Below, piece by piece: positions 8,348 to 37,320 of a stretch of DNA of 44,549 bases (position 1 is its first letter; each line of letters opens with the position of its first letter). The position numbers and the translations under genes are program-made. Origin of the DNA: a virus; the IMG/VR virus record IMGVR_UViG_3300027974_000055, positions 1-44,549 of that record; one strand, 5' to 3'. The notes beneath the pieces were generated by a model. The model did not search any database. It was not told the origin of the DNA and worked only from the letters and a program-made list of their open reading frames with translations.

Positions 8348-8353
8348 TAAATA
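8346..8353 (+). promoter_or_regulatory. late promoter motif AATAAATA
   Basis: The motif overlaps the gp20 stop codon (TAATAAATA) and ends five bases before the ATG at 8359. T4 late spacing would put +1 on that ATG. No Shine-Dalgarno sequence can be seen for the downstream gene. Confidence 0.5.
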
Positions 8354-8358
8354 GATAT

Positions 8359-8601: not shown

Positions 8602-8627
8602 ATTATTAACTTATTAAAGGATTAGTT

Positions 8628-9814: not shown

Positions 9815-9847
9815 AATCACATCATTATCAACCAATTTTTACAGTTA

Positions 9848-9857
9848 TATGTAAATA
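9848..9857 (+). promoter_or_regulatory. possible late promoter upstream of gp67
   Basis: TATGTAAATA resembles the late motif. With the T4 gap the transcript would start near 9863, giving a leader of about 28 bases that contains AGGAG (9880-9884) six bases before the ATG. The first half departs from consensus, so support is modest. Confidence 0.35.
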
Positions 9858-9890
9858 TACTTGACAGCTCATTACCTATAGGAGAACAAA

Positions 9891-10844: not shown

Positions 10845-10852
10845 AAAGATAG

Positions 10853-11479: not shown

Positions 11480-11491
11480 AAGGAGAATCAC

Positions 11492-12589: not shown

Positions 12590-12605
12590 TTAAGGAGATT
12601 ATATA

Positions 12606-18916: not shown

Positions 18917-18962
18917 AAAAAGTTACGTGAAACTTATTCATTAAATTCAAAAGGGAAATTAG

Positions 18963-21900
18963 ATGAGCACTAATATTAGATTTAAACGCAGTGATATACC
19001 AGGAAAAGTACCATCACTAGAGGCATTAGAATTAGGTGAGTTAGCAATTAACAGTGCTGACGGTAAACTATTTACTAAACAAGAAATTAAACAACCTGCA
19101 GGGTTTTCAGCTATACAAAAGATTGTTGAAATCGGCGCAACATCAGTACCTAACGTACTTTATGTTAGTAAAAGCGGCGATGACAGCAATAGCGGTAAAA
19201 CATTGGGGGAGAGTTTTGCAAGCCTAAAAAAGGCTCTGAGTGTTGCGACACCTGGCACGACCATATTTTTAAAGAGTGGGGAGTATATTGAAGATAACCC
19301 ACTAAGAGTTCCTGCTCGTGTATCAGTTGTTGGCGACAACTTGCGTAACACCACAGTTCGTCCAAAAAACCCAACACAAGATATTTTCTGGGTTTACAAC
19401 GGTGCGTATATTTTCTGTATGAATTTCAAAGGACACATTGCTCCTTCAGCTGCGGTCTGTTTCCCACCAGACGGTAGTGCTGGTGAAATTGTAACTTCCC
19501 CTTATACTCAAGCGGTAACCAGTATCACAACAACTGGTACAGGTATGCGTGTTGACGGTGCTGTAACTACTGGCCTACGTTCAATGGTTGCTGATGCGTT
19601 TACACAGTACAACCAAGGTGGTATTGGTATTCACATGTTGAACAGAGGAAACACACAGTTAGTTTCCATCTTTACAATTTGCTGCGATATTTCATTCTTA
19701 TGTGAAAACGGTGGATTTTGCTCGATCAACCTAAGTAACAGCTCATTTGGTAACTACGGTCTAGTAAGTCGTGGTGCTAGTGAAATTTTATATCGTGGTG
19801 TTGTTAAGAAGTCAGCAGGACGTCAAATTGTATTTAAGAATTTAGCCAAGCGTCCAAACATTGGTGACGGCGTATTATTTGCCAACTATAATCAAGTTAC
19901 ATGTAATAGAGACAATGGTCTAATTGTTGATAGTTTAGCTCAAGATTTATTATACGAAGGTACTACACAAAGTACATTTGCTGGCCTACGTTATTGGGCC
20001 AAAGGCGAAATCACAATTGGTGATCAAGGTCCAGAAACAGTCGCAGCATTAGATCATGCCAAATATGTTGCTGGTTTAATTACTCGTGACGTAGCAGTTA
20101 CTAAAACATCAGGTAATACTGAAAATCAAGTAGGCAAAGTTGCTGCTGGTGCAACTGATGGCGGTTCTGTAACAGCACAAAGATTAGTACGTGACGGGTT
20201 TGCCATTGTCAGTGGAATCGTAGAGAACGGGCCATTAAGTCCAAAAACAATTATTCTTCCAGATTATGACTTGGCTGAACCAGAACTTAAACGTTTAAGA
20301 GAACAAGTATTAAGCAAAAAGCAAGAAATTCAAGATCAAACTATTGCTTTTATTAGATCAACTTATCCAACTCTTCAGTATTCTGAATCCAAGTGTTTTA
20401 GAGATGTTGGCATTATCATTGATGCTGTAATTAACGATATGATTTTTGGCGGTAATTATTTAAGTATCAAGGCTGCTAGATCATATATAAGCGCCAGTGG
20501 ATTAGTAATTCCTTCAGGTACAAAAACAGAAACAATTGAAGCTGTTAAATTTGCTCGTGATAAAGTAATTGCTTTAATAACTGAAAATACTGATGCAGTA
20601 GACAGTGTCACAGGAAATTTTGAGTTAATTACTAGCTCAATTGACGCTGGCGCAGTAACAACAGCCCCACAATATCCTGATTATCAAGATACAGATGTAA
20701 CTGTTAAGAATTTAGTTATAAACTTACAAGCTAATAAGACACTTGTTAAACAAATTGTTATTGCTAAAGTTAATGAAAATTATCCAGATTTAATTGGAAA
20801 TTATGATGAAAATATATGTAAAAGAGATGTAGGATATGTTCTTGATGCAATGTGCTTTGACTTGACCTACGGCGGTAATAGTGAAACAATAGATGCAGCT
20901 AAGAGATATTATAGCTATGCTAATGGTTCAAGACAAATTGCTAATTATGAGCGTGTTGCTACAACAGATGCATATGGTATTGCCCAGTTGTACAGTCAAC
21001 GTGTTGTAATTAATGATCCTATTGAAGGATATTCAGGTAGTCAAAATCTTAACGGTACTGCAACAACTCAAACTCAAGTTAATAACTTAGGTAATTTATT
21101 CAAGATATTCCTAAAACAGATTGATTCAGAAATCGTTGGAACTAGTGATTTTATTCAGTCAAATGGTGCTAGATCAACTGACACAGATTTAGATAATGGC
21201 TACAAACTATTACAAGCTAACAAGAACTTCTTAAAAGCTGAAGTCATTGCTTATCTAACAAGATCATATCCTGCATTTAACTATGACAGAGTAAAGTGTG
21301 CTCGTGACATTGGTTACATTGTTGATAGTGTATGTTTTGACTTAGTACACGGTGGTAATCGTCAAGCTGTTCAAGCAGGTATTTACTACTATGGATTTAA
21401 CGATGAATCCAACGTGCTAAAGACAGTAAGTCCAAGACAGATTAATCAAACAATCAATGCTTACCTCTACTTAAAAGAGCTATTAGCTGATGTTATTACT
21501 TGTACACCAAGACCAAATCCATGGCAAGGTGATGTTGAGCAGAGAACCAGTCTACCACCTGCTACAATTGCCGAGTCATATGCAATTAATAATTTAATTG
21601 ATGTGATTGTTGAAATTCTACGTGAAGGTCCTAACAACAGTGAGGATTCCATTCAAAGAACTAAACAAGCTATTGGACTAACAGCAAGTACAGATCCTAA
21701 TAAACAAAAGGCATTTGACTTGCTAGTTGCTAACAAGCAATTTATTCAAGCTGAATTACAAGCTTATATTAACATCAACTGGTATGAAATCAGTGATGGT
21801 GATAACACATTTGCTCGTGTAAGTACAGCTACTCCATTATCACTAGGAACAACAACAACTGGGTATCCAATAACAACTTATCAGCCAACTGCTGTTAAGG

Positions 21901-24900
21901 CTGTAAGAGATGCAATCCTAGCTGCTAAAGAAGATATTACAACAGAAACTATCAAGTTCATGGCTAATAACTTCTTTGATAACTTCAGCTTTAATAAGCC
22001 AAAGTGCTACAGAGACGTTGGCTTAATTTTAGATGCTATTCTAAGTGACATGATCTTTGATAGCAACTATAAGACAATTAATGCTGCTATCAGTTATTTC
22101 CGTGCTTACGCTAGTGACGTAATTGGACCACAGAAGGTTCAAACTATTGCTGCATTAGAAGCTGCTAAAGTATTAACATTAGAGCGTGTTGTTACTCCAG
22201 CAGCTAAGAAAGCAATTAGTACAAGATTTGATATTTTAATTGATATTCTTAAAGATGGCACCGTTGACAATCCTGCAGCTCCTTCATTGGAATATCCAAT
22301 TCCAAAAAGAAACAGTGATGATGATATTGACAGAGACACTGCTGTTAAAATTCTAAGAGATAATATTGCTTTTATCAAAGAAGAAGTTGTTGATTATATT
22401 GATAGTAACTTTACTGTATTGTCATATGATAGAGAAAAGTGTGCTCGTGACGTTGGTATTATTATTGAAGCATTAGGATATGACTTAATGTTTGGCAGTA
22501 ACTTCCGTAGTATCACTGCTGGTCGTAGTTACATGAGAGTCAATGCTGCTAAAGTTGCAAGTGGTCAAAAATTAGCAACTGTTGGTGGATTCAAACAACT
22601 TAAGAAACTAGTTGCTGAATTACTAAAACAAAACAGTTTAGCAGTTAACAGCACAAATAGAAATATGGATATCATCATTGACATCGTAGAAAGCGATGGA
22701 ATGAATGTGCCAAAATTCATTATTCCTTTCCCAGAAACAGGTCGTGATGTTGGCTATAAGAGAGCTAGAGATCTAGTTGAAAAGAATAGAGGATTTATTA
22801 TCAGTGAAATCTTGGCTTACATTGATCAAAATGATGTACCAGTTGGTTACGATCAAGCCAAGTGTGAACGTGATCTAAACTTAATTTTAGATGCTGTATA
22901 TTATGATACTACTTATGGTGGTACATTGGAAACTCAAACAGCAGCATTCAGCTATTTTGTTGGTGCAATTAAACAGCTAGATCCAACTGGACAAAATGAT
23001 GATGAAGTTGCTGCTACTATTGCTGCTTATACACATTTGAAATCAGTTATTTCGGATGTGGCAGTTGATACACCAGTAACTAGAACAACTGGTAATAGTA
23101 CAGTTCAGTTTAGAAGTCCAACTGGCAGTGACGGCAGTGCCGCAGCATCCAGCGATATGTCTGATTTAATCCAATTAATTCTTAGCTATATTGATAATTC
23201 TAGTGCTGATAACGGCGCACTTGATATTGAAAACTTAACATCTACTCCAGATCTAGCATGGGTTGATGCAAAATTAGTAGCTGAGTTTAAGAAATTACAA
23301 ACAGCCACAGTATCATTGAAGAAAGAAATCACTGATTACATTGATACAAACTATGTAATTTTTGGATATGACAGAGATGTATGTGCTCGTGACGTAGGTC
23401 TTGTAGTTGACGCAGTACGTTATGACATGATGTTTGATACTAACTTCAACAGTATTGTTGCAGGTCGTAGTTATTATCGTGCTCAAGCTAGTGTAGTAAC
23501 AAAAGATCAGAAAGTTGCCACAATGGCTTCATTTGAATTCTTAAAGACCAAGTTATTAGATTTAGTCAAGACCAACGAAACAGCCACAACTAGAGTAACT
23601 GCTAGTATGGATGCTATTTTAGCTATTTTAGAAAACGGCCTAACTGCTGCTCCAACAGTTAAATGGACTCCTCCAACAACTGGTACAACTGGAACAGCTG
23701 GTATTTCTACATTCTTAGCAGCAAGAGACACAATTCAAACTAGTAAAGAAACTCTTGTTAAAACAATTAATTCTTGGGTTATTCAACAGCAGGGCAGTGG
23801 CTATCCTGGTTTCACATATGGCCCTGCTCAAAGAGCTAATTGCCAAAGAGATTTAAGATTCATCATTGATGCAATTTGTTATGATTTAACATACGGCGGA
23901 ACAACTCAAGTTGATATCGCTGCTAAGGCTTATAAGAGTGGTGTTACAGGGGCTTCAGTACTAGTATCAAATGACTTGGATATTACTATTGCTGCTTATG
24001 GACAATTGGCTACAGAGTTAGATACTTTAATTGCTGATGCTACTGTTAGCGCTAGAGTAGCATTGTTGGCTAATCGTATTTCTGATATTATTGCAGGCGA
24101 TATTAATCCTGATTCAGGACCTGACGCAACAGTTCTTCCTACAACAAATTGGGTTGCTAACGCATTAGTTACATTGAATCTAAGTTTAACTAATAACAAA
24201 ACTGATCTTGGTGATGCAATAACTGATTTTGTTGACAGTCGTTATGCCTATAACAGAGCCAAATGCGCTCGTGACGTTGGTTTCTTAATTGACGCAATGT
24301 GCTATGACGTATTATATGGCGGTAACCTTGATACATTATCAGCAGCACAAAGTTATTTTGATGGTGCAATTACTCCTAAGTCAGTTATTCCTAAGCAGGT
24401 TATTCAAACTGTAGCTGCTTATGAAAGACTAAGCGAAGTACTACAAGATGTAGTTCGATTAAAAGCAGTTACTCCAAGTAGCAAGAAGTTCTTAGCTACA
24501 GAAAGAGCAACTGCTAACATGGACTTAATTAAGAGTATTTTAGATAATGGAGAAGCAGTTGCTCCAAAGCGTCCATTTGCTTTACCACTTCCAACAAGTG
24601 GTGCTGGCAATGCCAGTGTTGATGCATATCTAAATGCAAGAAACTTAATTGCAGCTAACAGAGAATTCTTAAAAGCTGAAGTTATCGCTTACATTGAAGC
24701 TAATAGTCCGCCAGTTTACAATCAGGAAACATGTAAACGTGATGTTGATTATATCCTAGATGCTGTATATTATGACATGACTTACGGTGGCAATATGGAA
24801 ACTATTGTTGCTGGACGTGCATACTATGATGGTCTTGTGTTTAGTGATGATCCAACTGGAAATAGAGATGACGAAATTGCTGCAACTATTGCTGCTTATA

Positions 24901-27900
24901 CTCGACTAAAAGCAGCCATTGTTGATGTTGCTCAAAATAATGAGGTTACAGCAACAACTGGTAATAATGTTGCTCAAGTCTTTAGTTCAGGTACTAATGC
25001 TCAAGCAGGAAGTTCAGGTGCTGCTAATGCTGCTGGTGATTTAATTGATACTATTATTACTTTTGTCAATCTTGATGATGGTGATAATGATGATACTGAA
25101 GTTCCAGCTGGAACAGCATGGGTTGATAGCGGTCTTGTAGAAATCAGTGATATTCTAGATGCTGTTAATAATGCAAATTCTTCTAATACACTTAACGGTG
25201 TAAGTTTAGGGGTTGGTATCCAAAAACAAGTTACAGATTTTATTAATGCTAATTATCCAGACTTAGTAGGCAATTACGTAGTAAATACATGCCGAAGAGA
25301 TATTGGCCTAATTATTGATGCTGTACGTTATGACTTAATGTTTGGTACAAACTTTAGAAGTACTGTAGCTGGTCGTAGTTATGCTAGAACTCAAGTTACA
25401 GAAGGTGGCTTTACAACTAATAACCAAAAAGAAGCCACACTAGCAGCAATTGATTTTACCAAAGCTAAGATTTTAGAAATCATCGCTAATAATACAGTTA
25501 AACAAAGCACAACATCAAGCAGTAAAGGTTCAAGTGCAGCTGGCACTAAAGCTAATGATCTAATTGGTGTTATTTTAACAGCACTAGGTGGAACAAATCC
25601 AACTCCAGTTGCAGCTAGCACAGATTGGGTTAATGTTCTTGACAGTGAGTTAGTAACTATCAGTGATGCTATTGAAGCTGAAAAAACTGATATTAAGACT
25701 GCTGTTACAGATTATATTGCTGCAAATTACAGTGCTCAAACACAGGTAACCGCAACCAACACAACTAATGATATAATTACTGCTAATAGACATGGTTTAG
25801 TTGAAGATCAAATTATAGTACTTAAAGGTACTACAACAGGTACAGGCCTAACTGCTGATACTGTTTATTATGTATTAGGTGGAACTTATCTTACAACTAA
25901 TGGCTTCCAAGTAAGTACTGAGAAAGGTGGTTCTGCTGTTAACTTAACAACAAACGCTAGCGTTAGTGGTCTAACAATATTTGATTATAATGTTATTTCA
26001 TGCGAACGCGACATTGGTTTAGTTGTTGACGCAGTACGTTATGATATGATGTTTGGTAGTAACTTTAGAACAATTGTTGCTGCTCGTAGCTATTATCGCG
26101 CACAGGCTGCTCTAGTAGTAGGACTACAAAAAGATGCTACAATTGGCTCATTTGAGTTACTAAGAACTACACTATTAACATACACAACAACTAGTGAAAC
26201 AGCTAGATCTCGTGTAGCTGAGTGTATGGATATTGTATTGGCAGTACTAAAAGGTGGATTAGATCAACTTCCAGAAGTTAAACTACCAAGCCCAACTGGC
26301 TATAATACAGATTATCTACCAAGTTATGGATATGCAAGAAACTTAATTGATGCTAACAGAGCGTTTATCAAAGCAGAATTGACCAAGAAAATCACTGTTG
26401 AGTCCCCATCTTTAGATTATAATAATGCAGTATGTTTACGCGACGTTGATTATATCATTGACGCACTACGTTATGATATGACTTACGGTGGCACAATGGA
26501 AACTAGTGTTGCTGCGTTAGCATATTATGCTGGTGCCGGACTTGATAACGATTCACTCCCAAGTGGACAGTTAGCAATTACCGTAACTGCTTATACATAC
26601 TTACAGTCTCTAGTAGCAAAGATTGCTAAGAATGAGGATGTAAGTAAGCTTCAAGTTAAGGTTCCACAAGTATTTGGTCCACAAGCTGGTGTAAGTGCTG
26701 CTCAAGCTAGTAGAAATCTAGCATGGACAGTTAGAGATTATATCAGTACTATTGCTGCTAATCCAAGCACTGTGTATCCAGATACAGCATGGGCAGGTAC
26801 TAACTTGTCTGATTTTGCAGAATTATTGGGCAAATATAAAACACCTAATTTAGTTGCTTCAGTAGTTGACACAGTTAGAAGACCTAAGAGTTTCCCACAG
26901 ATTGTTACAGAATATGCTATCACTAACAATGGTAACACAGTAACTGGAATTGCTGTAGGTGGCGGCGGTGTTGCTACAATTACTGTAACAAATGATCATA
27001 CATTCACTGTTGGACAAGCAATTCAATTTACAGCAGGTGCAGATGTTGGCAGCATTAAGTTTGGTACTACATATTATGTAAAAACAATCCCAACATCCAA
27101 TACTTTCACAGTAAGTGAGAGAAGTGATCGTACAACAAATGCAGAGCTAACTGCCGCAACAATCACTCCAGGAGCAGGTACATTAAGAGTTAGCTATTTT
27201 GACACAGATAAGTGTGCTCGCGACACTGCTTTATTGTTGGATGCACTACGTTTTGACATTGCTTTTGATACAAACTTTAAGACAATTATTGCTGCTCAAG
27301 CTTACAGTCGCAATGTGACAAATGCTGTGACTGGTGTTCAGAGACAAGCTACAATAGCAGCTTTCAAGCAACTAAAGGCTGAGTTAATAACACTTAATAA
27401 TAGAGCAAAATCAACAAGCAAGACTGCTATTAATACTAATGGCACTGCTGGTAGTGGTAATGGTGGTGACACAACAACTTTAGCTAGAATTAATACCTTA
27501 ATGGACTTGTTCATTACTAATGTTGGTGTTCCTTTAAGAACAGTTGCTATTACTGGCACTGGTGGCCAATTCTCTTGTGCATCAGAGGCATATGTGGAAG
27601 TAGGAGCAAAAGTTGTTATTACAGGTACATATGGTGGCGGTGGCTCCATTACTGGGTATGCTACTGGAAATACATACTACGTTATTTCTACTAGTGGCCC
27701 TACTAACTTTACATTGTCAGCTACAAAGGGCGGCAGTGCAATTACAACCACTGCTGGCACACCAACTGGATTAACATATATTTTAGTTAAAGATGTTCCA
27801 GCTAAGCCATATTCAATTCCAACTCCAACAGGTGCTAATTCTCTAAACACACCTCTAAATGCTTATGATAGAAATACATTGGCTGCTAGAACTGCTATTG

Positions 27901-30900
27901 AGAATAACCGTGAGTTTATTAAAGCAGAAGTAATTGCTTGGATTGATGAGCAAAACAGACGTGATACTAGCGGATTTACAGTGTTTGCGTACAATCGCAC
28001 TCAGTGTTTGGAAGATTTAGATAGCATCCTAGATGCCATTTACTACGATCTAACATATGGTGGTAACACTGAAACTGTTAATGCAGGCACAGCTTATTAT
28101 GAAGGTGCTGTACTTGGTGCAGATGAAGTAACAGCTACAGAAAGAGCTTACAATTACTTAGGTACAGTTTTATTTGAAGTATCCCGTAATACACCAGTTG
28201 AGTCATTCCAACTAGCAGTGCCACAAGTTCGTGGTATTGGTGCTAGCGAACAAGTTGCTGCTAAACTAGCTGGACTAACTGACATTGTTATTAATGTTGT
28301 TAAAGGCGGTGTGAAACAGCTTCCAGAGCCAATTGAGCCAGAGTTCTTAGCTGGTGATGAAACATTGGCTTATGTAAGATTAAGCTTGCAAGAACAGAAG
28401 AAGAGTTTACAGGCTCGTATTGCTGATTATCTTGACAGCTATATTTTACAATATAACACAGAAAAGTGTGCTCGCGACGTTGGCTTAATCATTGACTGTG
28501 TCATGTATGACCTAGTTCTAAACAGCAACTTCCAAACTATCACAGCAGGCAGTGTATACTTACAGAAAGCAGCTGGTGTAGTTACAAGTTACCAGTTAGG
28601 GCCACAGTTAGAAGCAATTAACTTTATTAAAGAAAAGTGCGTTGCAGTAAGTCAAACACCTCCACTAGTAACAAATCCATATATTATCAGTGAAATCGAA
28701 AATAGATTTGACATTCTATATGACATCGTTGACAAGGGTGTTGAAGTAGCCCCAGCAGTGGTAAATGTTCCACCACTAGGTGCTGCTCTCAATCCAAACA
28801 GTATCAACGCTGCTAAGAGTTTGATTGCTAACAAGGAGTTCTTGAAAGAAGAAGTTACTGCTTATATCACAGCTAACTACAAGACTTATGATCAAAGCCG
28901 TTGTGCTCGCGACGTTGGCCTAATCATTGATGCTGCATTGAATGACCTACTATTAGGTACAAACTACAACAGTATCAAAGCAGGTACAGCTTATCGCAGA
29001 GCAACCAGCAGCTTGGTAATCAGCGATCAACTAAGAGAAACATTAGGTGGTATTGATTATGCACTAAGTCGTGTGTTAGAACTAACAACTGATGCAACAG
29101 CAATCGCTAGCATTACTGATAGTTTTGAATTGATCAAGAGTATTATTGCTGAAAGCACAGTGCCAACTTTTGTTACTGCACTAGCTGGTGGCAGTGTTTA
29201 CGCACTACCAAGAGCAACTGGAAGAGATTTCCGTACTATTGGATATTTTGACGCAGTTGATTATCTCAAGAACAGCACTAACGTAACTGCTATTAAGAAT
29301 GCAGTAAGTGCATTTATTGTTGCTGAACTTGCTGGTCGTAAGAATCCAGCGTTTGATGGATTTGATTATGGTACATGGGATAGTTCAAACAATACAAATA
29401 CCACCCCAACTACTGCTGGAACTAATAGAAAGGCTTCATGTGAAAAAGACATTGGTTACATCTTAGAAGCAATGTGCTATGACTTGACCTACGGTGGCAA
29501 CATGGAAACAATGGTTGCTGGTCGTGCATACTATGCAGGTGCAGCTAACGAAAGTTTACTAATTGGCAACGAAATTAAATCCACATTAGAAGCTTACACT
29601 TTCATGGCTAGAAAGGTTCTTGATCTTCTAGTAGCTGCTAGCATCCCAGCCGACATTGCAAGAGAAGCTGAGGCATTGGTTTTAGGTGTAAGAAACTTAG
29701 TTGATGCTGCTTACAACAGTAGTCCAGTAACAACTACACCATATATTGATTGGGTAGATTCAGATTACCTAACATTAGATGGTGAGTTCCTAACAGACAA
29801 GGACACAATTATTACTGACATCGTTGATGCAGTAAGTGTTGGTGATCCAAGTTTAGTGTTTGACTCAGCCAAGTGTGCTCGCGATATTGGGTTAGTCATT
29901 GATGCAGTACGTTATGACATGTTATTTAATACTAATTTCCGTAGTGTTGTAGCTGGTCGTAGTTATACGCGTCTTGTAGCATCAGAAGTTTATGATGGTG
30001 GTGATCAAAATACTGCTGAATTAGTTGCATTAAACACATTAAAAACAAAATTATTTGATATAATTGATGTTCGTGCTGCTGGTACAATTGAAGTAGCTGC
30101 CAAAGCTAGATTAACAAGTCTAATGGATACTATTATAGATATCGTTAGCGGTGATGATCCTCCTGCGATAAGTGCATTGCCAACCCCAACAGGTGGCACA
30201 GATAATTCACACGTTGCAGCTATTGCCAATGCCAAAGCTAGAATTGTTGCTAACAGAACTTTCTTAATTAATGAAGTAATTGCTTACATTATTCAAGAGA
30301 AGACAGCTAACAGAGGCAACTTCAACACTAATGCTTACCCAGAATTTACATTTACTACTGGTGTTGGTGCAACAGACGAAACTAAGTGTAGAGAAGATTT
30401 AGGATTTATCTTAGATGCAATTGTTTATGACTTGACCTATGGCGGCAATATGGAAACATCAGTTGCTGGTCGTGCTTATTACAATGGTACAGTTCTAGAA
30501 GGTAAGAATGAAAAACTTGCTACATTAGATGCTTACAGACATTTAAGAGACGTTATCAAGCTAGTAGTTCAAAATATTGATGTAACTAGATCCAGTGGAA
30601 ATAGTACTACACAAGATAAAACTGCTCCAGCTTCTACTGAACCAGTAAGTACTAATTTTGTCGCTCCGTTAGTTACACTAGTAATGAACTACATTGACAC
30701 AGCTCCGCAAGATCCAGTTGAAATTCCAGCTGACATTAAGTGGGTCCCAAGTAAGTTATATGTGTTCAGTGATGCGCTAAATGCTGCTAAAGCAACTGTG
30801 GCTAAGACAACAACTGATTATATCAGTGCTAACTATCCAGCATTAGATTATGACGTTGCAACATGTCAAAGAGACATTGGTTTAGTCATTGACGCGGTAC

Positions 30901-33900
30901 GTTGGGACATGATGTTTAACAGTAACTTTAGAAGTAACGTTGCTGGTCGCAGCTACTTACGTAGACAAGTTACTGAAGGTGACTTTACAAGTTTAGGTCA
31001 GAAGGATGCATCAGTTGCAGGCTTTAGAATTGTTAAGATTGCACTAGAAGATATTGTCAAATCTGACGCAACAGCTCTAGCAAGAGTTGGTGCAAGTATG
31101 GACGTAGTCATTGACATCCTAGACAATGGAGCTGGTCGTGTTAGAACATTTGCTGGAAGCGGCGCATTAGCACTATCAATTCCATATGGTGGCACTGTAA
31201 ACAGTTTTGATATTGGTCGTCTAGCTGCTAGAGATCGTATTGAAGCTAACAGAGATTACATCAAAGGTCAAGTTGCTGAGTATATTGACGACGAAGGTAT
31301 TAATCCAACAGGATTTAGTTTAGCAACATGCTTACGCGATGTTGACTACTTCTTAGATGCAGTACGTTATGACTTAACATACGGTGGCAACTTAGCAACT
31401 GTAGAAGCTGGACGTGCATACTACAATGGACTAGTATTAGCTGAAGCTGATTCAACTCATATTACTAACACTATTGATACATTTAATTTTGTTGGTAGCA
31501 TTATTGAAGACATTGCTCAAAACTTAGCTGCTGGTCCTTATACAGGCGGAAGTATTCCAGCACAATCCACAACTGGACTTGCAGGTAGTGCTGCTGGTGC
31601 TGCTGCTGCTAAAGTATTGTTTGATGAGTTAGTAACATATATTAATACTAGCACAGGTGATAATGCTGCTGCAAGACTACCTAACACAAGTTGGGTTAAC
31701 AGTAACTTTGTATCATTTGCAACAACAATGGGTGATACAGTAGCAAGCTTACAGCAACAAGTAACTGATTATGTTACTGCAACATTCCCAGCATTGGATT
31801 ATAACGTAGACACATGTGCTCGCGATGTTGGTTATGTTGTTGACGCAGTACGTTATGACATGATGTTTGACAATGAGTTTAGAAGTTATGTTGCTGGTCG
31901 CAGCTACTCACGTAGTCAAGTTACAAGTGGTAACTTCACAACTAAGGAGCAAAAGGCAGCCACAATGGCAGCATTTGAATTCTTAAGAGGCAAGTTGTTA
32001 GCCATTGTAACTGGTAACAAGGAAGCTGGTCGCAGAGTAACAAGTGCAATGCGTACTCTATTAGACACATTGGAGCTAGGTGAAGTAACTAGAAATAGTT
32101 ATGACGCAGTAGTTGCTAGTGGTATTAGCCTACTTGATGCTAATAGAGATATTTTATTATCGCAGATGGGTACATATCTAGATGGTATTTCACATAGTTT
32201 CTCTGGCTATAATAAAGATACATGCTTACGCGATATTGGTTATGTATTAGATGCAATCAAGTATGACTTGACCTATGGTGGCAATATGGAAACAGTTGTT
32301 GCTGGTCGTGCATATTATGAAGGAGCTGTACTTGGTTCTTCTCCTCATACTGATCACGTTAATGCTACTAAGGCAGCATTCACTGAATTAGGCGATAAGA
32401 TTGCAGATATTTCAGACTTCCCAGCAAGTGTAGCTGATACAATTGCTGCATTGATTGCTAACGTCAACAGTTTGATTGATGATGATGCAAGTGTTACAGA
32501 AGTTTACGCAGATGCTTCATGGGCAGATGTAAATCTAAAAGAAGTAAGTGCTACATTTAGAGATCAAATTGCAGTAATTAAGACTGCTGTTACTTCATAT
32601 GTAACCACTAACTTCCCAGCATTGACATACGACGCAGTCAAGTGTGCTCGCGATGTTGGTTATGTAACTGACGCGATTAGTTGGGACATGTTGTTTGACA
32701 GCAATTTCCGTACAACAATTGCTGGACGCAGTTATGCTCGTTTAATTGCAAGTAATGGCGTGTTTGGTACTACCCAAAAATTAGCTACAACAGCAGCATT
32801 TAACTTGTTAAAGAATGAATTATTAGCCCTAACAACTAATAAGATTGCTCAAGAAAGAATTGCAGCTGGCATGAATGTTATCCTACAGATCCTAGATAAG
32901 GGTCCAGATGGTAGCATACCAGCTATTACTTGGGGTGGTACACCAGTATCAGATAATGCTGACGAAGTTAAAAAGACTTTATTAGCCAACAAGGACTTCA
33001 TTGTTGACCAAGTACTTGCTAAGATCAACACTGAGTACAATCCATTCAAAGAACAGGATGACACTGTTGGATATAATGAAGAAAAGTGTGCTCGTGATGT
33101 TGGTTACATTGTAACTGCTGTCGCATATGACATGGTAACAGGTAGTAACTATCAAAGTACTATAGCTGGATTACGCTACTTAGGTAATACGGCTGAAAAT
33201 GTATTGGATGGCAGTAAAGAGCAGCATATGACAATTCAAAGCTTGAAGTATGTCAAGCAATTGTTAGCTTCAATTGTGGCCAACAATATCGATGCTGTTG
33301 ATAGTGTTAAAGCTAGCATGGATCTAATCATTGGTATTATCAATGGTGATATTGCAGCAAGTGTTGCTATAGATGAAATGGACTTCACTCCAAGTAATGT
33401 TACAGCATATAATGCTCAAGGACAATTAACTCGTCTTGTTAGAGGTACAATCCAAAGTGACATTACAGATTGGTTCGCCAACCCAACTGGCGGATATGAC
33501 AGTAATGTGTTCTGGAATGCATTAAGTGCTCCTAAGAAAGCTTTATGTACACGCGACGTTGGTTATATTGTTGACGCAATTACATATGACTTAACATATG
33601 GTGGCAACTGGGCAACTACTATTGCTGCTCGTGCTTACTATGTAGGAAATAGTAATGAGTTAACATTAGGTGTTGTTACTGCTGAGAAAACTGCTACTCT
33701 AGCTGCTTATGAATACTTGAAAACTTTAATTCGAGATGAGGTTAGTGGAAATACTATTGAGCAAGAATTAACTAACGTTACTAACGATACAAAAGTTGGT
33801 ACATTAATTGACATTATTAAAAATGTAATTTCAAACGGATTAAGTGCTCTTCCAACAGTACAGTATCCACAATTGCTTGGTGCAGATAATGACCTAGAAA

Positions 33901-36900
33901 TTGCTAGAAATAACATAGTTAATGCTGTGTCTACAATATCTAAAAAGACCACCAAGTATATCAATGAAAGAGCTTACTTCTTATATGATGTTGTCAAGTG
34001 CGAACGCGACCTAGGATACATCTTAGACGCAGTAATTTATGACACTTTCACTGACAGTAATGCCCAAAGCGTTACAGCTGGTCTTGCTTACACAAGAGTT
34101 GATGCTCAAGGTGCAGTTGCTGCTCCGCAGAAGTTTGCAATCTTAGCTGCTCTAACTCATGCTAAGAGTGTATTAGCTAACCTAGTTAGTACTAGTAGCA
34201 CTGTTGTAAGCAGAATTAGATCTAAGCTAGGTATTATCATTGACATTATTAATGACGGTGGCAATGCTCCAACATTAAGTTTCCCGTCAACTGGTCTTAC
34301 AGGTGCAGTAACTAGTAATACATTGCAGACTAATAAAGAAACTATTAAAACTGCTATTGGAACTTACTTGTCCACTTATACAGCTAATGGATTTAGTTGG
34401 GCAACATTAGCTGGTAGACAAGCTACATGTTTACGCGATGTTGGTTATATTGTTGACGCACTAACACATGACTTAACATATGGCGGAAACAGAGCAACTG
34501 TTATTGCTGCTCGTAGTTATTTTGCAGGTACTCAAGCGCAATTGGGCAATGGTACTGGCGAGAAAGGAGCTACTTTAGCTGCTTACGCTCAACTTAAGAC
34601 TACAATTGCTAGTTATGTTACAGGACAAACTACCGCGGCTAATGCTTTAATTGATATTATTATCAATTATGTTGGTGGTGATGGAACAACTCCAGCATTA
34701 ACAACAATTATTGAGCCAACAGTAACAAGTACTAACCCAACTATTACTTCTGCTAAAGCTACATTACTTGCAGCTAAAGAAGCTAGTGTAAATAAAGTAC
34801 TTGATTATATCAATAGCAGAGAGTTTGTAAGAGGTGTTTATGACACAACTAAGTGTGCTCGTGATGTTGGTATTATTCTAGACGCAATTGAATATGACTT
34901 ATTACTTGGATCTAACTTCCAGTCAGTTAAAGCTGGTCAGGCATATTTAAGAAGTTATAGTAAGACAGTAACAGGCGAACAAAAAGCAGCTACTATTGGT
35001 GCATTGTACTTCTTGAAGAAAGCATTAACTGACTTGTCATTAACTGGGGCAACTACTGTACGTTCATTGATGGATACTATCATTGACATCATAGATCGTG
35101 GTGTAATAGCTGTTCCAGCATTAACATTTGATACAAATGGTACTGCTGCATACGATAATGCTGTTGAAACTATTGCTAATGCTAATAATACAGCTTTCAT
35201 CAAAGCAGAAGTTCGTGCTTGGATTGCAATCAATTATCCAGAATTGGATTATGACAAGATTGCATGTGAGCGTGATGTTGCATATATCCTTGAAGCATTA
35301 CGTTATGACTTGATCTATGGCGGTAACAGTCAAACTGTAGAAGCTGGTCTTGCATATTGGGAAGGCACTACATTAACATTAGGACTAGGTGAACCTGGTC
35401 AAAGTGAAGCAACTGCTACACTAGGTGCATATGCTTATCTAAGGGATATGATTAGAGCTTTAATCTTAAGTGAGACAACATTTAATGCATTTACTCCAAA
35501 ACAAATTTCTGTTACAAAAGGAACATTTGGTGGAGCAAGTAGTAGCACAGTTCAAGATGGTGTTACTGACCTAATTGATGGTATAACTAATATTATTGAT
35601 TCAGCTAATTTAGGTGCTGCTAATACAACTGCTAATAGTTTAAGAGTTTTACCAACTATCAATACTGGTGATGCTGATTATACAGCAATAGAAGCAGTTA
35701 GAGCTACTCTTGTTGCAAATAATACTACAAGTGGCAGTGTAAACAAGGCAGTCAAAGATGCATTTGATGGACAATGGTTCGTGTACAATCCAGAAAAGTG
35801 CGGACGCGATATTGGTTATATTGTTGAAGCATTGGCTTATGACATGTATTACGGTGGCAATACTCAAACTAGAGATGCTGGCATCCAGTACACATACAAA
35901 GGTGGTCTAGTCATTCCGTTTGGAACAAAAGGACCAACAATCCTAAGTATGCAGTATCTAGAAAGTATCATTGATGACATTGTTAAGAATACTACTGTTG
36001 CACCGTTAAGTGGTAACAGTCAGACTCAAGACAAGACTCATACAGCAGCTACTAACGATAATGCAACAAGAACTGCAACATTGGTTCATGGTATTGTAAC
36101 AACATTACAAAAAGGTCTTGCTGGTGCTCCTGCCCTAGTTGCCCCAAGTTTGGACAATGCTGAAGCCAAGTATGTATTGTTACGCGATTTAATTCAAGAT
36201 AATCTTGAAGCAATTCAAGCTGACACAATCACTTATGTTAATGAAGAGTATTCAGGATTTGGATACTTACAAGATACATGTAAGCGTGACATTGGCTTAA
36301 CATTGGATGCTGTGGCTTATGACTTGATCTACGGTGGAAATAGTAGAACCAAGTATGCAGCAGAGCAGTATTTCAGTGGTGGTAGATTGCAGATCCCAGC
36401 AGACAGCAAAGATGCTACTGCGGCTGGATTCAATTATCTAGACACATTGGCAAGAAAGATTGTTAAGAATGATTATGTAACTCCGTTGCAGATCTATGTA
36501 GATCAGAACACAGACAATGTGGCTGCTACAGATAGTGAAGTAACCACAGTTGGATCATTGTTCGATGCATTTACTGATATCGTTTCAAACGGTTATGTCA
36601 GTGTAGTGACACTAGATGCTACATTTAAGTCAAGTGTTGATGATAATACATATGCAACTTTCCACCAAGTTAGCCAGATTACAACAACTGGTCACACACT
36701 AGAGTGGGTAGGAACTGGTATTGACGTTGATAGTGCGTTACCATATAATGGTGGAGTACCGATTGAGGCTAATGAGATTGTTAGTGAACGCGGTGGATTC
36801 ATCAACTTCACTAGTACAGATCAGAAGGGTGACTTCAAGATTGGTCCAGAACTAACAATTAAACGTGACTCAGGTTCGATTGTTGGTAGAGCATTTAACA

Positions 36901-36950
36901 AGAGCTTGCTAGGTGTTATTACACCATACATCCTAGCATTGAATGAGTAA
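18963..36950 (+). CDS. giant 5995-residue repeat virion protein (adhesin/fibre candidate)
   Basis: This uninterrupted 17,988-base gene makes up 40 percent of the window. The start (IRFKRSDIPGKVPSLEALEL, then GELAINSADGKLF) is the classic N-terminal attachment motif of phage tail-fibre proteins. Residues 60-345 look like a right-handed beta-helix of the DUF1565/pectin-lyase type (NVLYVSKSGDDSNSGKTL and later GGIGIHMLNRGNTQLVS). Residues 478-5773 mark an array of 33 modules, each centred on Cys-x-Arg-Asp. The last 98 residues form a separate domain (ERGGFINFTSTDQKGDFKIG, ending in PYILALNE) that I recall from large structural proteins of marine T4-like phages. At over 0.6 MDa by usual residue masses it would be exceptionally large for a phage. 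Similar short arrays exist in the group. Function as a long fibre or surface coat is inferred. Confidence 0.8.
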   Translation: MSTNIRFKRSDIPGKVPSLEALELGELAINSADGKLFTKQEIKQPAGFSAIQKIVEIGATSVPNVLYVSKSGDDSNSGKTLGESFASLKKALSVATPGTTIFLKSGEYIEDNPLRVPARVSVVGDNLRNTTVRPKNPTQDIFWVYNGAYIFCMNFKGHIAPSAAVCFPPDGSAGEIVTSPYTQAVTSITTTGTGMRVDGAVTTGLRSMVADAFTQYNQGGIGIHMLNRGNTQLVSIFTICCDISFLCENGGFCSINLSNSSFGNYGLVSRGASEILYRGVVKKSAGRQIVFKNLAKRPNIGDGVLFANYNQVTCNRDNGLIVDSLAQDLLYEGTTQSTFAGLRYWAKGEITIGDQGPETVAALDHAKYVAGLITRDVAVTKTSGNTENQVGKVAAGATDGGSVTAQRLVRDGFAIVSGIVENGPLSPKTIILPDYDLAEPELKRLREQVLSKKQEIQDQTIAFIRSTYPTLQYSESKCFRDVGIIIDAVINDMIFGGNYLSIKAARSYISASGLVIPSGTKTETIEAVKFARDKVIALITENTDAVDSVTGNFELITSSIDAGAVTTAPQYPDYQDTDVTVKNLVINLQANKTLVKQIVIAKVNENYPDLIGNYDENICKRDVGYVLDAMCFDLTYGGNSETIDAAKRYYSYANGSRQIANYERVATTDAYGIAQLYSQRVVINDPIEGYSGSQNLNGTATTQTQVNNLGNLFKIFLKQIDSEIVGTSDFIQSNGARSTDTDLDNGYKLLQANKNFLKAEVIAYLTRSYPAFNYDRVKCARDIGYIVDSVCFDLVHGGNRQAVQAGIYYYGFNDESNVLKTVSPRQINQTINAYLYLKELLADVITCTPRPNPWQGDVEQRTSLPPATIAESYAINNLIDVIVEILREGPNNSEDSIQRTKQAIGLTASTDPNKQKAFDLLVANKQFIQAELQAYININWYEISDGDNTFARVSTATPLSLGTTTTGYPITTYQPTAVKAVRDAILAAKEDITTETIKFMANNFFDNFSFNKPKCYRDVGLILDAILSDMIFDSNYKTINAAISYFRAYASDVIGPQKVQTIAALEAAKVLTLERVVTPAAKKAISTRFDILIDILKDGTVDNPAAPSLEYPIPKRNSDDDIDRDTAVKILRDNIAFIKEEVVDYIDSNFTVLSYDREKCARDVGIIIEALGYDLMFGSNFRSITAGRSYMRVNAAKVASGQKLATVGGFKQLKKLVAELLKQNSLAVNSTNRNMDIIIDIVESDGMNVPKFIIPFPETGRDVGYKRARDLVEKNRGFIISEILAYIDQNDVPVGYDQAKCERDLNLILDAVYYDTTYGGTLETQTAAFSYFVGAIKQLDPTGQNDDEVAATIAAYTHLKSVISDVAVDTPVTRTTGNSTVQFRSPTGSDGSAAASSDMSDLIQLILSYIDNSSADNGALDIENLTSTPDLAWVDAKLVAEFKKLQTATVSLKKEITDYIDTNYVIFGYDRDVCARDVGLVVDAVRYDMMFDTNFNSIVAGRSYYRAQASVVTKDQKVATMASFEFLKTKLLDLVKTNETATTRVTASMDAILAILENGLTAAPTVKWTPPTTGTTGTAGISTFLAARDTIQTSKETLVKTINSWVIQQQGSGYPGFTYGPAQRANCQRDLRFIIDAICYDLTYGGTTQVDIAAKAYKSGVTGASVLVSNDLDITIAAYGQLATELDTLIADATVSARVALLANRISDIIAGDINPDSGPDATVLPTTNWVANALVTLNLSLTNNKTDLGDAITDFVDSRYAYNRAKCARDVGFLIDAMCYDVLYGGNLDTLSAAQSYFDGAITPKSVIPKQVIQTVAAYERLSEVLQDVVRLKAVTPSSKKFLATERATANMDLIKSILDNGEAVAPKRPFALPLPTSGAGNASVDAYLNARNLIAANREFLKAEVIAYIEANSPPVYNQETCKRDVDYILDAVYYDMTYGGNMETIVAGRAYYDGLVFSDDPTGNRDDEIAATIAAYTRLKAAIVDVAQNNEVTATTGNNVAQVFSSGTNAQAGSSGAANAAGDLIDTIITFVNLDDGDNDDTEVPAGTAWVDSGLVEISDILDAVNNANSSNTLNGVSLGVGIQKQVTDFINANYPDLVGNYVVNTCRRDIGLIIDAVRYDLMFGTNFRSTVAGRSYARTQVTEGGFTTNNQKEATLAAIDFTKAKILEIIANNTVKQSTTSSSKGSSAAGTKANDLIGVILTALGGTNPTPVAASTDWVNVLDSELVTISDAIEAEKTDIKTAVTDYIAANYSAQTQVTATNTTNDIITANRHGLVEDQIIVLKGTTTGTGLTADTVYYVLGGTYLTTNGFQVSTEKGGSAVNLTTNASVSGLTIFDYNVISCERDIGLVVDAVRYDMMFGSNFRTIVAARSYYRAQAALVVGLQKDATIGSFELLRTTLLTYTTTSETARSRVAECMDIVLAVLKGGLDQLPEVKLPSPTGYNTDYLPSYGYARNLIDANRAFIKAELTKKITVESPSLDYNNAVCLRDVDYIIDALRYDMTYGGTMETSVAALAYYAGAGLDNDSLPSGQLAITVTAYTYLQSLVAKIAKNEDVSKLQVKVPQVFGPQAGVSAAQASRNLAWTVRDYISTIAANPSTVYPDTAWAGTNLSDFAELLGKYKTPNLVASVVDTVRRPKSFPQIVTEYAITNNGNTVTGIAVGGGGVATITVTNDHTFTVGQAIQFTAGADVGSIKFGTTYYVKTIPTSNTFTVSERSDRTTNAELTAATITPGAGTLRVSYFDTDKCARDTALLLDALRFDIAFDTNFKTIIAAQAYSRNVTNAVTGVQRQATIAAFKQLKAELITLNNRAKSTSKTAINTNGTAGSGNGGDTTTLARINTLMDLFITNVGVPLRTVAITGTGGQFSCASEAYVEVGAKVVITGTYGGGGSITGYATGNTYYVISTSGPTNFTLSATKGGSAITTTAGTPTGLTYILVKDVPAKPYSIPTPTGANSLNTPLNAYDRNTLAARTAIENNREFIKAEVIAWIDEQNRRDTSGFTVFAYNRTQCLEDLDSILDAIYYDLTYGGNTETVNAGTAYYEGAVLGADEVTATERAYNYLGTVLFEVSRNTPVESFQLAVPQVRGIGASEQVAAKLAGLTDIVINVVKGGVKQLPEPIEPEFLAGDETLAYVRLSLQEQKKSLQARIADYLDSYILQYNTEKCARDVGLIIDCVMYDLVLNSNFQTITAGSVYLQKAAGVVTSYQLGPQLEAINFIKEKCVAVSQTPPLVTNPYIISEIENRFDILYDIVDKGVEVAPAVVNVPPLGAALNPNSINAAKSLIANKEFLKEEVTAYITANYKTYDQSRCARDVGLIIDAALNDLLLGTNYNSIKAGTAYRRATSSLVISDQLRETLGGIDYALSRVLELTTDATAIASITDSFELIKSIIAESTVPTFVTALAGGSVYALPRATGRDFRTIGYFDAVDYLKNSTNVTAIKNAVSAFIVAELAGRKNPAFDGFDYGTWDSSNNTNTTPTTAGTNRKASCEKDIGYILEAMCYDLTYGGNMETMVAGRAYYAGAANESLLIGNEIKSTLEAYTFMARKVLDLLVAASIPADIAREAEALVLGVRNLVDAAYNSSPVTTTPYIDWVDSDYLTLDGEFLTDKDTIITDIVDAVSVGDPSLVFDSAKCARDIGLVIDAVRYDMLFNTNFRSVVAGRSYTRLVASEVYDGGDQNTAELVALNTLKTKLFDIIDVRAAGTIEVAAKARLTSLMDTIIDIVSGDDPPAISALPTPTGGTDNSHVAAIANAKARIVANRTFLINEVIAYIIQEKTANRGNFNTNAYPEFTFTTGVGATDETKCREDLGFILDAIVYDLTYGGNMETSVAGRAYYNGTVLEGKNEKLATLDAYRHLRDVIKLVVQNIDVTRSSGNSTTQDKTAPASTEPVSTNFVAPLVTLVMNYIDTAPQDPVEIPADIKWVPSKLYVFSDALNAAKATVAKTTTDYISANYPALDYDVATCQRDIGLVIDAVRWDMMFNSNFRSNVAGRSYLRRQVTEGDFTSLGQKDASVAGFRIVKIALEDIVKSDATALARVGASMDVVIDILDNGAGRVRTFAGSGALALSIPYGGTVNSFDIGRLAARDRIEANRDYIKGQVAEYIDDEGINPTGFSLATCLRDVDYFLDAVRYDLTYGGNLATVEAGRAYYNGLVLAEADSTHITNTIDTFNFVGSIIEDIAQNLAAGPYTGGSIPAQSTTGLAGSAAGAAAAKVLFDELVTYINTSTGDNAAARLPNTSWVNSNFVSFATTMGDTVASLQQQVTDYVTATFPALDYNVDTCARDVGYVVDAVRYDMMFDNEFRSYVAGRSYSRSQVTSGNFTTKEQKAATMAAFEFLRGKLLAIVTGNKEAGRRVTSAMRTLLDTLELGEVTRNSYDAVVASGISLLDANRDILLSQMGTYLDGISHSFSGYNKDTCLRDIGYVLDAIKYDLTYGGNMETVVAGRAYYEGAVLGSSPHTDHVNATKAAFTELGDKIADISDFPASVADTIAALIANVNSLIDDDASVTEVYADASWADVNLKEVSATFRDQIAVIKTAVTSYVTTNFPALTYDAVKCARDVGYVTDAISWDMLFDSNFRTTIAGRSYARLIASNGVFGTTQKLATTAAFNLLKNELLALTTNKIAQERIAAGMNVILQILDKGPDGSIPAITWGGTPVSDNADEVKKTLLANKDFIVDQVLAKINTEYNPFKEQDDTVGYNEEKCARDVGYIVTAVAYDMVTGSNYQSTIAGLRYLGNTAENVLDGSKEQHMTIQSLKYVKQLLASIVANNIDAVDSVKASMDLIIGIINGDIAASVAIDEMDFTPSNVTAYNAQGQLTRLVRGTIQSDITDWFANPTGGYDSNVFWNALSAPKKALCTRDVGYIVDAITYDLTYGGNWATTIAARAYYVGNSNELTLGVVTAEKTATLAAYEYLKTLIRDEVSGNTIEQELTNVTNDTKVGTLIDIIKNVISNGLSALPTVQYPQLLGADNDLEIARNNIVNAVSTISKKTTKYINERAYFLYDVVKCERDLGYILDAVIYDTFTDSNAQSVTAGLAYTRVDAQGAVAAPQKFAILAALTHAKSVLANLVSTSSTVVSRIRSKLGIIIDIINDGGNAPTLSFPSTGLTGAVTSNTLQTNKETIKTAIGTYLSTYTANGFSWATLAGRQATCLRDVGYIVDALTHDLTYGGNRATVIAARSYFAGTQAQLGNGTGEKGATLAAYAQLKTTIASYVTGQTTAANALIDIIINYVGGDGTTPALTTIIEPTVTSTNPTITSAKATLLAAKEASVNKVLDYINSREFVRGVYDTTKCARDVGIILDAIEYDLLLGSNFQSVKAGQAYLRSYSKTVTGEQKAATIGALYFLKKALTDLSLTGATTVRSLMDTIIDIIDRGVIAVPALTFDTNGTAAYDNAVETIANANNTAFIKAEVRAWIAINYPELDYDKIACERDVAYILEALRYDLIYGGNSQTVEAGLAYWEGTTLTLGLGEPGQSEATATLGAYAYLRDMIRALILSETTFNAFTPKQISVTKGTFGGASSSTVQDGVTDLIDGITNIIDSANLGAANTTANSLRVLPTINTGDADYTAIEAVRATLVANNTTSGSVNKAVKDAFDGQWFVYNPEKCGRDIGYIVEALAYDMYYGGNTQTRDAGIQYTYKGGLVIPFGTKGPTILSMQYLESIIDDIVKNTTVAPLSGNSQTQDKTHTAATNDNATRTATLVHGIVTTLQKGLAGAPALVAPSLDNAEAKYVLLRDLIQDNLEAIQADTITYVNEEYSGFGYLQDTCKRDIGLTLDAVAYDLIYGGNSRTKYAAEQYFSGGRLQIPADSKDATAAGFNYLDTLARKIVKNDYVTPLQIYVDQNTDNVAATDSEVTTVGSLFDAFTDIVSNGYVSVVTLDATFKSSVDDNTYATFHQVSQITTTGHTLEWVGTGIDVDSALPYNGGVPIEANEIVSERGGFINFTSTDQKGDFKIGPELTIKRDSGSIVGRAFNKSLLGVITPYILALNE
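20394..36281 (+). repeat. 33-copy Cys-module array in the giant gene
   Basis: Module cysteines fall at residues 478, 619, 779, 1015, 1160, 1301, 1474, 1627, 1768, 1924, 2110, 2347, 2491, 2751, 3015, 3169, 3314, 3493, 3638, 3809, 3968, 4123, 4285, 4421, 4561, 4709, 4862, 5013, 5156, 5298, 5435, 5613 and 5773. Most spacings are 136-186 residues; four are 236-264. Each module has C-x-R-D, then a helix of the form G-x-I-I-D-A-V-x-Y-D, then either an A-type (FGSNFRS...AGRSY) or a B-type (YGGNMET...AGRAYY) continuation, a second helix ending L-K-x-x-L, a D-I-I-x-x-G linker, and an A-N-R-x-F-I-K-A-E helix. A and B types mostly alternate. Confidence 0.92.
25738..27795 (+). repeat. three related beta-domain insertions in the giant gene
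   Basis: Three extra segments of roughly 80-90 residues interrupt the module array at about 25738-25985, 26910-27200 and 27535-27795. They share a TxYYV strand, then an N-x-F-x-V/L-S strand and a T/GGSA loop (VYYVLGG with FQVSTEKGGSA; TYYVKTI with FTVSERSD; TYYVIST with FTLSATKGGSA). They look like small Ig- or fibronectin-like tail domains. They account for three of the four long intervals between module cysteines and occur nowhere else in the array. Confidence 0.7.
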
Positions 36951-36981: not shown

Positions 36982-37320
36982 ATGGCAAACGTACCTTTAA
37001 ACGCATTTAAAACTGTAACAGCAACGGTAACTACTACCCCGACCAATATCTACACAACCCCTGCGGGGGTTACAGGTATCGTGCTAGGAACACAGGTAGC
37101 TAATATTACTAGTAGTGGTTCAGCAGCAATTACAGCATGGCATGTAAGAGGAGTTGTTTCAAATGAATTAGTTAGTTCATTTGACATACCTCATAGCGAT
37201 GCCGTAAGTGTTGTAGCAGGCAAGTTGGTTCTAGAATCAGGCGATACCTTGAGAGTTCAAGGTAGCGGGAATAATTCTTTAAGAATTACATTAAGTATTC
37301 TAGAATCAGCTAACGATTAA
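36982..37320 (+). CDS. small beta-rich virion protein, paralogue of 16112-16429
   Basis: This 112-residue protein has GIVLGTQVANITSSGSAAIT, a central AWHVRGVV strand and a KLVLESGDTLRVQGSGNNSL segment that parallels the protein at 16112-16429. Such small beta-sandwich proteins often act as adaptors or caps beside fibres. It follows the giant gene after 31 bases with AAGGA before the ATG, so it may be co-transcribed. Confidence 0.6.
   Translation: MANVPLNAFKTVTATVTTTPTNIYTTPAGVTGIVLGTQVANITSSGSAAITAWHVRGVVSNELVSSFDIPHSDAVSVVAGKLVLESGDTLRVQGSGNNSLRITLSILESAND

Follow-up and report, generated by a model that had tools for sequence, protein, structure and literature searches.

A single gene of nearly 18 kb in a metagenomic phage contig encodes a giant protein, most of which is a series of 34 modules that we assign, with high confidence, to the phycobiliprotein and bilin-binding globin superfamily. 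The protein itself is likely to be a fibre of the virion. The explanation that we put forward, which as a whole falls slightly short of an even chance, is a fibre made of phycobiliprotein-type domains that carry bilin-type sites and would bind bilin.

The giant gene and its genomic setting

The DNA analysed here (hereinafter the window, 44,549 nucleotides) is an entire 44.5-kb IMG/VR virus record, IMGVR_UViG_3300027974_000055, and represents a fragment. The giant frame (18963-36950, plus strand; Table 1) starts with ATG and continues for 5995 codons with zero internal stops in the window sequence, in agreement with an earlier reading of this DNA made from the sequence alone (the sequence-only reading). 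The purine-rich heptamer ahead of the start codon is likely to be the ribosome-binding site of the gene. The T4 late promoter consensus TATAAATA has one match, against 5.3 expected, and it does not lie near the giant gene.

Table 1. Positions of the features discussed in the text
Feature	Positions	Strand	Basis
T4-like head genes: portal phrog_213, protease phrog_207, major head protein phrog_138	6611..13784	+	PHROG matches
Upstream virion structural protein, 578 aa, phrog_6002	17149..18885	+	PHROG match
AAAGGGA, likely ribosome-binding site	18950..18956	+	sequence; 7-13 bases ahead of the ATG of 18963-36950
Single ORF, giant tail-fibre-type protein	18963..36950	+	5995 aa; second record 99.97% identical over residues 902-5995
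N-terminal fibre domain, residues 1-302	18963..19868	+	phrog_17885 start; DUF1565 (residues 71-127)
Array of 34 phycobiliprotein-like modules, two roughly alternating types	19872..36656	+	residues 304-5898; profile and motif
Neighbouring module pair, types A and B	31614..32552	+	AlphaFold2 model, pLDDT 81
Module with PF00502 match above curated cut-off	32970..33332	+	Pfam scan; AlphaFold2 model of 32925-33419
Module with PF00502 match above curated cut-off	34764..35087	+	Pfam scan
C-terminal domain after last module	36657..36950	+	phrog_17885 end match = last 126 residues
Downstream phrog_1276 protein	36982..37320	+	PHROG match
Downstream structural protein, phrog_697	37365..38330	+	PHROG match
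Downstream phrog_8578 protein	38474..40519	+	PHROG match
Collagen-repeat tail fibre, CBM5/12 match, truncated by window end	41928..44549	+	profile matches

Both ends of the giant protein match the tail-fibre family phrog_17885: residues 1-202 align with profile positions 4-203 (E 8e-66 in a search with the first 500 residues), and the last 126 residues with positions 878-1002 (E 2e-30). DUF1565, which we take to be a beta-helix family, is found above its cut-off at residues 71-127, consistent with the beta-helix N-terminal domain suggested previously. Furthermore, most of the listed relatives in isolated cyanophages bear the annotation tail fibre or structural protein. These matches bear out the long virion fibre of the sequence-only reading; the fibre role is well supported, and from the same sequence comparisons we infer a location on the virion.

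Among the cultured phages listed, those nearest to the window by head protein are Sinorhizobium phage Phosso (71.2% identity) and Vibrio phage 2.275 (70.5%), not cyanophages. The nearest of the listed cultured phages span 65-71% identity, and the best 80 IMG/VR loci, a large share of which are short contigs, have 82-90% (gene at 12606-13784). Two genes of the head operon, in the interval between the portal and the prohead protease, encode a methyltransferase-like protein (8628-9230; RMNT_CmcI, 4.7e-6) and a protein with a weak sialyltransferase match (9227-9814; phrog_4603, 7e-4). The downstream proteins of 37365-38330 and 38474-40519 both carry RVELFSGRVKK in their N-terminal part, a stretch that may serve in attachment.

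An ordered array of 34 modules

The giant protein contains 50 cysteines, of which 34 lie within C-x-x-D...D module motifs, the first at residue 314 and the other 33 between residues 478 and 5773. The C-x-x-D signature, followed by an aspartate at +14, is present in all 34 modules, and its strict C-x-R-D form in 31, the exceptions being CLED at 3015, CEKD at 3493 and CRED at 3809. Thus, the array seen in the sequence-only reading is there, with its cysteine at an equal place in every module, but the number given, 33 Cys-x-Arg-Asp modules, has to be amended: the divergent first module had been missed, and the strict motif is not universal. The cysteine spacing of mostly 136-186 residues holds for 28 of the 32 intervals between residues 478 and 5773, the remaining four being 236, 237, 260 and 264 residues long. 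A module profile finds 34 modules along with two motif-less half-module remnants (residues 907-939 and 2224-2257), and a wider profile yields 35 matches in the giant protein, including a remnant at 898-952. In an alignment of 33 modules, five columns are invariant, namely the Cys, Asp at +3, Asp at +14, an Ala and a Tyr.

Two module types, A ('SNF') and B ('GGN'), alternate roughly along the chain: modules two places apart are on average more similar than direct neighbours, by 36 score units, a difference that none of 2000 shuffles of the order reached. An orthologue with an N-terminus nearly that of the window protein (MSTNIRFKRSDIPGKVPSLE) is encoded in a 400-kb phage contig. It also has 34 modules, counted across two consecutive pieces whose junction is spanned by a locus (L083) open in the same frame, and in 26 of 27 reciprocal best pairs the two modules have the same index. 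Comparison of the giant protein with a third relative, at 61% protein identity, gives dN 0.315 and dS 0.979 over 4450 codons (dN/dS ~0.32). Given the common module order and the excess of dS over dN, the array is old, ordered and under purifying selection, with no fresh repeat expansion.

Fold and family of the modules

So what are these modules? The helix-turn pattern noted in the sequence-only reading was a fair description, but the fold had gone unrecognised; Pfam, profile comparison with the PDB and Foldseek all point to phycobiliproteins. Two of the four single modules scanned against Pfam match PF00502 (phycobilisome protein) with E-values of 6.1e-5 and 7.3e-5 (23.5 and 23.2 bits against a cut-off of 22.2), one of the matches covering profile positions 35-152 of 155; the other two modules gave no PF00502 match. 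When the giant protein is scanned as four pieces, the family appears in one (1.9e-12, two stretches). PF00502 is above cut-off at only two places of the whole window, which weighs against the explanation that we prefer. In a set of 129 modules scanned singly (alignment A5, which holds 128 of the 130 listed references from other phage loci and one window module; alignment A4 holds 100 of 141 listed references), PF00502 is found in eight at E<=0.1, and every other family in at most one. Weak matches of the giant protein to DUF7669 (0.029) and T4_baseplate (0.063) were under the Pfam cut-offs and were set aside.

Comparison with PDB sequences is more specific with respect to the family. Phycobiliproteins account for 34 of the 38 matches of the 33-module profile at E<=1 (best E 0.0012), and the top 20 are all phycocyanins, of the alpha chain where the name tells; all six matches of the 129-module profile at E<=0.01 are phycocyanins as well. 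The 33-module profile aligns to phycocyanin Cys to Cys, Arg to Arg and Asp to Asp and continues along the helix, with a common register past the motif at Gly+5, Tyr+6, Tyr+13 and Gly+18/+19.

The predicted structures are compatible with this assignment. For the AlphaFold2 model of a single module (32925-33419, pLDDT 82), each of the best 50 Foldseek rows is a phycobiliprotein, a phycobilisome chain or smURFP, with a probability of 1.00, and the bilin domain of ApcE comes first (E 5.7e-3). Prediction of consecutive modules, a check suggested in the sequence-only reading, was run on a pair (31614-32552), the first 19 residues of which are below pLDDT 50, and likewise produced phycobiliprotein-like models: 44 of the best 50 Foldseek rows are phycobilisome or phycobiliprotein chains (best E 0.15), and six are unrelated helical proteins. 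Neither model has a Foldseek match in the PDB at E<=0.001. With VIA-align, the best 50 rows for the first module of the pair are phycobiliproteins or fluorescent proteins (Z 14.2-15.3), the alignment starting at target residue 31-35 in some rows and at 3-23 in others. A structure library of viral proteins contains the module fold in proteins of cyanophages and uncultured phages, named, for example, tail protein. Taken together, the assignment of the modules to a phycobiliprotein-type fold family is well supported.

Phages that carry the modules

A tblastn search with a module pair matched 36 phage records, all of them Synechococcus phages or cyanophages, in which the respective proteins are named short tail fiber, tail fiber, structural or hypothetical protein. 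A longer query (the first 2666 residues, including the N-terminal domain) matched 245 records, 232 of them Synechococcus, Cyanophage or Prochlorococcus, 11 'Marine', one uncultured and one Pelagibacter, the match being to the modules or to the N-terminal domain. Hand-picked isolates were also searched with the profile; these 26 records comprise 9 of the 27 with a reductase match, two chosen for a module match, 10 spread over the head-protein matches and the five nearest jumbo relatives. Modules are present in 14 of 16 cyanomyoviruses and in none of 10 other phages with a related head protein (Fisher p 1.2e-5, uncorrected for kinship), or in 12 of 14 cyanomyoviruses if S-PM2 and DSL-LC03, chosen because they matched, are left aside. 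By this profile search, P-HM2 carries modules, and P-SSM2 and P-SSP7 do not.

In IMG/VR, two pattern searches gave at least 474 and at least 552 confirmed module stretches. Searches of bacterial and archaeal genomes returned zero matches with one module profile and, with a second, only three contigs of one Rhodobacteraceae bin; these contigs of Water_Bin34 (L384, L385 and L386), perhaps of phage origin, carry C-x-R-D arrays. Even if no bilin is involved, a fold can now be named for the modules in many proteins annotated as 'tail fiber', 'structural' or 'hypothetical'.

Modules and genes for bilin synthesis

Could the bilin genes of phages serve as a marker of what the modules do? Among 33 module-bearing records (31 IMG/VR contigs, chosen mainly by size from 157 loci, and two isolates; many are fragments), a reductase gene is found in three, heme oxygenase in the same three, CpeT in one and CpeS in none, and psbA/psbD in two, both isolates, with 0 of the 31 IMG/VR contigs having either. 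In the reverse direction, 18 further contigs of at least 60 kb were taken out of 80 reductase loci, and not all of them are independent, G034 and G035, and G038 and G043, being nearly alike; modules are present in six of the seven that reach at least 130 kb and in none of the 11 of 60.6-91.1 kb. A control set of 10 contigs of at least 50 kb, out of 80 head-protein loci, has modules in seven and a reductase in none. Among the isolates, modules are found in 8 of the 10 with a reductase versus 6 of the 7 cyanophages without one. The use of bilin genes as a marker of module function is thus unsupported in the forward and reverse counts, and these counts together with the control indicate that the presence of modules goes with the lineage of the phage and not with the reductase; in the wider counts, the joint occurrence of reductase and modules shows nothing beyond shared ancestry.

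Several individual arrangements are to be mentioned. Genes for heme oxygenase and a PcyA-like bilin reductase are adjacent in three of the 33 records, all large phage contigs that lack psbA (L163, L164 and L165); in the last, which is the 400-kb contig, they are located at 339.7-340.9 kb, some 216 kb from the module array. In the isolate Sf-FP1 (L363, 6038-19754), a giant virion gene with modules follows the end of a reductase gene after 37 bases, and a CpeT-like gene is nearby. Pelagibacter phage Mosig encodes heme oxygenase and reductase, and modules are absent at E<=0.1; beside its neck genes lies a single block (L354) for ferrochelatase, endonuclease V, three 2OG-Fe(II) oxygenases, heme oxygenase and a PcyA-like protein. 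That a phage-made bilin might meet a bilin-binding globin has already been suggested as one possibility, the phage protein being unnamed in the accessible part of that article (PMC11480375), and the role of the phage bilin genes pcyA and pebS is termed a mystery in another article (PMC3037559).

What the conserved site may hold

In phycobiliproteins, the cysteine of the site forms a thioether, and the aspartate and arginine contact the ring nitrogens and a propionate. Each phage module has one conserved cysteine, in C-x-R-D at the start of a helix. Conservation was counted over 1109 distinct module matches from 157 virus loci, some of which overlap and one of which is nearly identical to the window, with the 96-98 matches gapped at a triad column excluded. 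The motif columns retain C in 942 of 1011, R in 936 of 1012 and D in 994 of 1013 ungapped matches, values that are somewhat inflated because the loci were found by part-motif patterns and a profile of the window's own modules. Asp+14 (1016/1019) and Tyr+30 (985/1019) are both more conserved than the motif cysteine and, to our knowledge, are not bilin-site residues.

Co-variation was assessed in the 990 of the 1109 matches with Asp+14 and an aromatic residue at +30, reduced to 471 representatives below 60% identity. The cysteine is present in 422 of these; the aspartate is kept in all 422 and missing in 12 of the 49 without the cysteine, and the arginine is missing in 19 of 422 versus 21 of 49 (odds ratio 16). 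Columns +6, +27, +5, -5, -1 and +26 of the same representatives also associate with the cysteine, and columns +10 and +17 do not. The link between Cys, Arg and Asp is therefore suggestive and not special to the triad, and the association of columns outside it makes our preferred explanation slightly less likely. In several modules of P-HM2, S-RIM2 and S-SSM5, the cysteine and aspartate are retained and the arginine is replaced (CVDD, CIDD, CEDD and CKTD).

The preferred explanation can be spelled out as follows. The giant gene would encode a tail fibre (or a whisker) of a T4-like, probably large-genome phage. Most of its chain is an array of 34 domains of predicted globin fold, types A and B in a set order, between ordinary fibre-family ends, and this combination of a long central array with tail-fibre-family ends suggests a long spacer that would hold the receptor-contacting parts far from the baseplate; at about 4 nm per domain, the 34 domains might extend over roughly 130-150 nm. 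Each module retains what in phycobiliproteins is the binding site of a linear tetrapyrrole, and modules would bind a bilin that is produced in the host or by enzymes of the phage. The reading frame, the array and its order, the kinship in sequence and predicted fold and the conservation of the site are shown by the data, and the place on the virion, the length, the binding of bilin and any part played by light are inferred. Judging from sequence, such binding appears to be the most likely reason for the conservation of the site, and that some members of the family bind bilin in nature could, on the same grounds, go either way, with a lower chance for the phage of the window. In phycobiliproteins, the cysteine of this motif holds the bilin, and cellular globins with CXRD bind bilins without a lyase (PMC10151467).

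A serious possibility, though one to which we give clearly less than an even chance, is that a phycobiliprotein fold was co-opted as a sturdy helical building block of a fibre that no longer binds bilin, with C-x-R-D serving in packing or forming a salt bridge where helix E begins. The higher conservation of Asp+14 and Tyr+30 compared with the cysteine, the association of columns outside the triad with the latter, the loss of the arginine in some cyanophage modules and the independence of bilin genes and modules among cyanophages are all compatible with this scenario, as is the affinity of the window head protein to those of Sinorhizobium and Vibrio phages. Conversely, a free cysteine that is kept at the frequencies given above and is accompanied by the aspartate wherever it occurs fits a ligand site better than packing, and globins of the same branch with CXRD do bind bilins (PMC10151467).

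Might the likeness to phycobiliproteins be convergent, with an unrelated helical repeat carrying C-x-R-D by chance? The low sequence identity, the modest E-values, the six unrelated helical proteins among the best 50 Foldseek rows for the pair and the fact, given in the VIA-align notes, that helical models can score high Z without kinship leave some room for this reading; nevertheless, we consider it very unlikely given that separate signals concur, that is, the PF00502 match over nearly the whole profile, the almost exclusively phycocyanin matches in PDB sequences, the best 50 rows of the single module being solely phycobiliproteins or derived proteins, and the register that extends beyond the motif to Tyr+13 and Gly+18/+19.

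Still less probable is a role of the cysteines in disulfides between modules after release or as metal ligands, both of which had been offered in the sequence-only reading. One cysteine at an equal place in each module is what suggested it, but the modules share no further Cys or His beyond it (Cys at +12 occurs in 5 of 34), the neighbouring Asp and Arg are conserved like the cysteine, and the motif matches the known bilin site of phycobiliproteins; accordingly, this role is not favoured. Finally, the chance that the giant frame is an assembly artefact fusing several genes, a concern with any frame of this size in a 44.5-kb metagenomic virus contig and one raised at the outset, is negligible: a second IMG/VR record, possibly from the same water, is 99.97% identical to the window over 17,441 gap-free bases and contains residues 902-5995 in one frame, and this record, the orthologue of identical module number and order in the 400-kb contig and the dN/dS of about 0.32 against the 61% identical relative rule the artefact out and show the frame to be authentic.

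Light and the possible significance of the fibre

An extension of the preferred explanation is a pigmented virion fibre with dozens of covalent bilins per chain, host- or phage-made, that in cyanophages could act as a photoreceptor for light-dependent adsorption. We consider this unlikely, and the control of adsorption by light through the fibre more doubtful still. Adsorption of S-PM2, which carries modules, is light-dependent, and P-SSM2 is able to adsorb in darkness. For some cyanophages, adsorption fails in the dark (PMC7238727); P-HM2 shows no dark adsorption and P-SSP7 infects in the dark (PMC7112961). P-HM2 does show weak infection in the dark, with phage transcription and partial loss of host DNA reported from a study in which inoculation was in dim light (PMC5082946). 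The pattern is consistent but thin, and P-HM2, P-SSP7 and P-SSM2, three phages of different kinds, are too few to establish a link.

In the literature searched, which covers few subscription journals, we found no report of a virion structural protein composed of phycobiliprotein-type domains. Should the preferred explanation be true, bilin-binding globins would extend from cells to virus particles. If the fibre is pigmented, it could explain the light-dependent adsorption of some cyanophages, and the phage bilin genes would gain a virion substrate. Two open questions, the purpose of phage pcyA and pebS and the reason why some cyanophages skip adsorption in the dark, become simple tests.

Comparison with known systems

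The closest likeness is to alpha-phycocyanin and allophycocyanin (PF00502), with which the modules share a predicted globin-like fold and the Cys-x-Arg-Asp motif in register; unlike phycocyanin, the phage protein is an array of 34 and has Asp+9 and Asp+14 in place of the phycocyanin residues. Light-harvesting phycobiliproteins in the strict sense are alpha/beta pairs that have N-terminal helices X and Y and build trimers and hexamers; the varied alignment starts in VIA-align and the low-confidence first residues of the pair model bear on these helices, and the alternation of two phage module types carries no information about assembly. The bilin-binding domain of ApcE (4xxi), the top Foldseek row for the single module, comes from a long multi-domain chain in which one biliprotein domain is combined with linker repeats, albeit in a cellular protein of the phycobilisome core. 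Another fold match to the single module, with a TMt of 0.75-0.76, is smURFP, a fluorescent protein engineered from allophycocyanin.

The bilin biosynthesis-associated globins (BBAGs) are phycobiliprotein paralogues linked to genes for heme oxygenase and reductase, and BBAG-1 and BBAG-3, which have CXRD, take up bilins without lyases (PMC10151467). The BBAGs, likened here by description, are cellular, unlike the phage modules, and genes for heme oxygenase and reductase occur together in 3 of the 33 module-bearing records, many of which are fragments. Among viruses, the counterparts are the giant fibres of cyanophages, which have profile matches in common with the window protein (PHROGs 4527, 5342, 701, 3442 and 17885) and have 2-12 module matches per genome in the 14 isolates, compared with 34 in the window protein.
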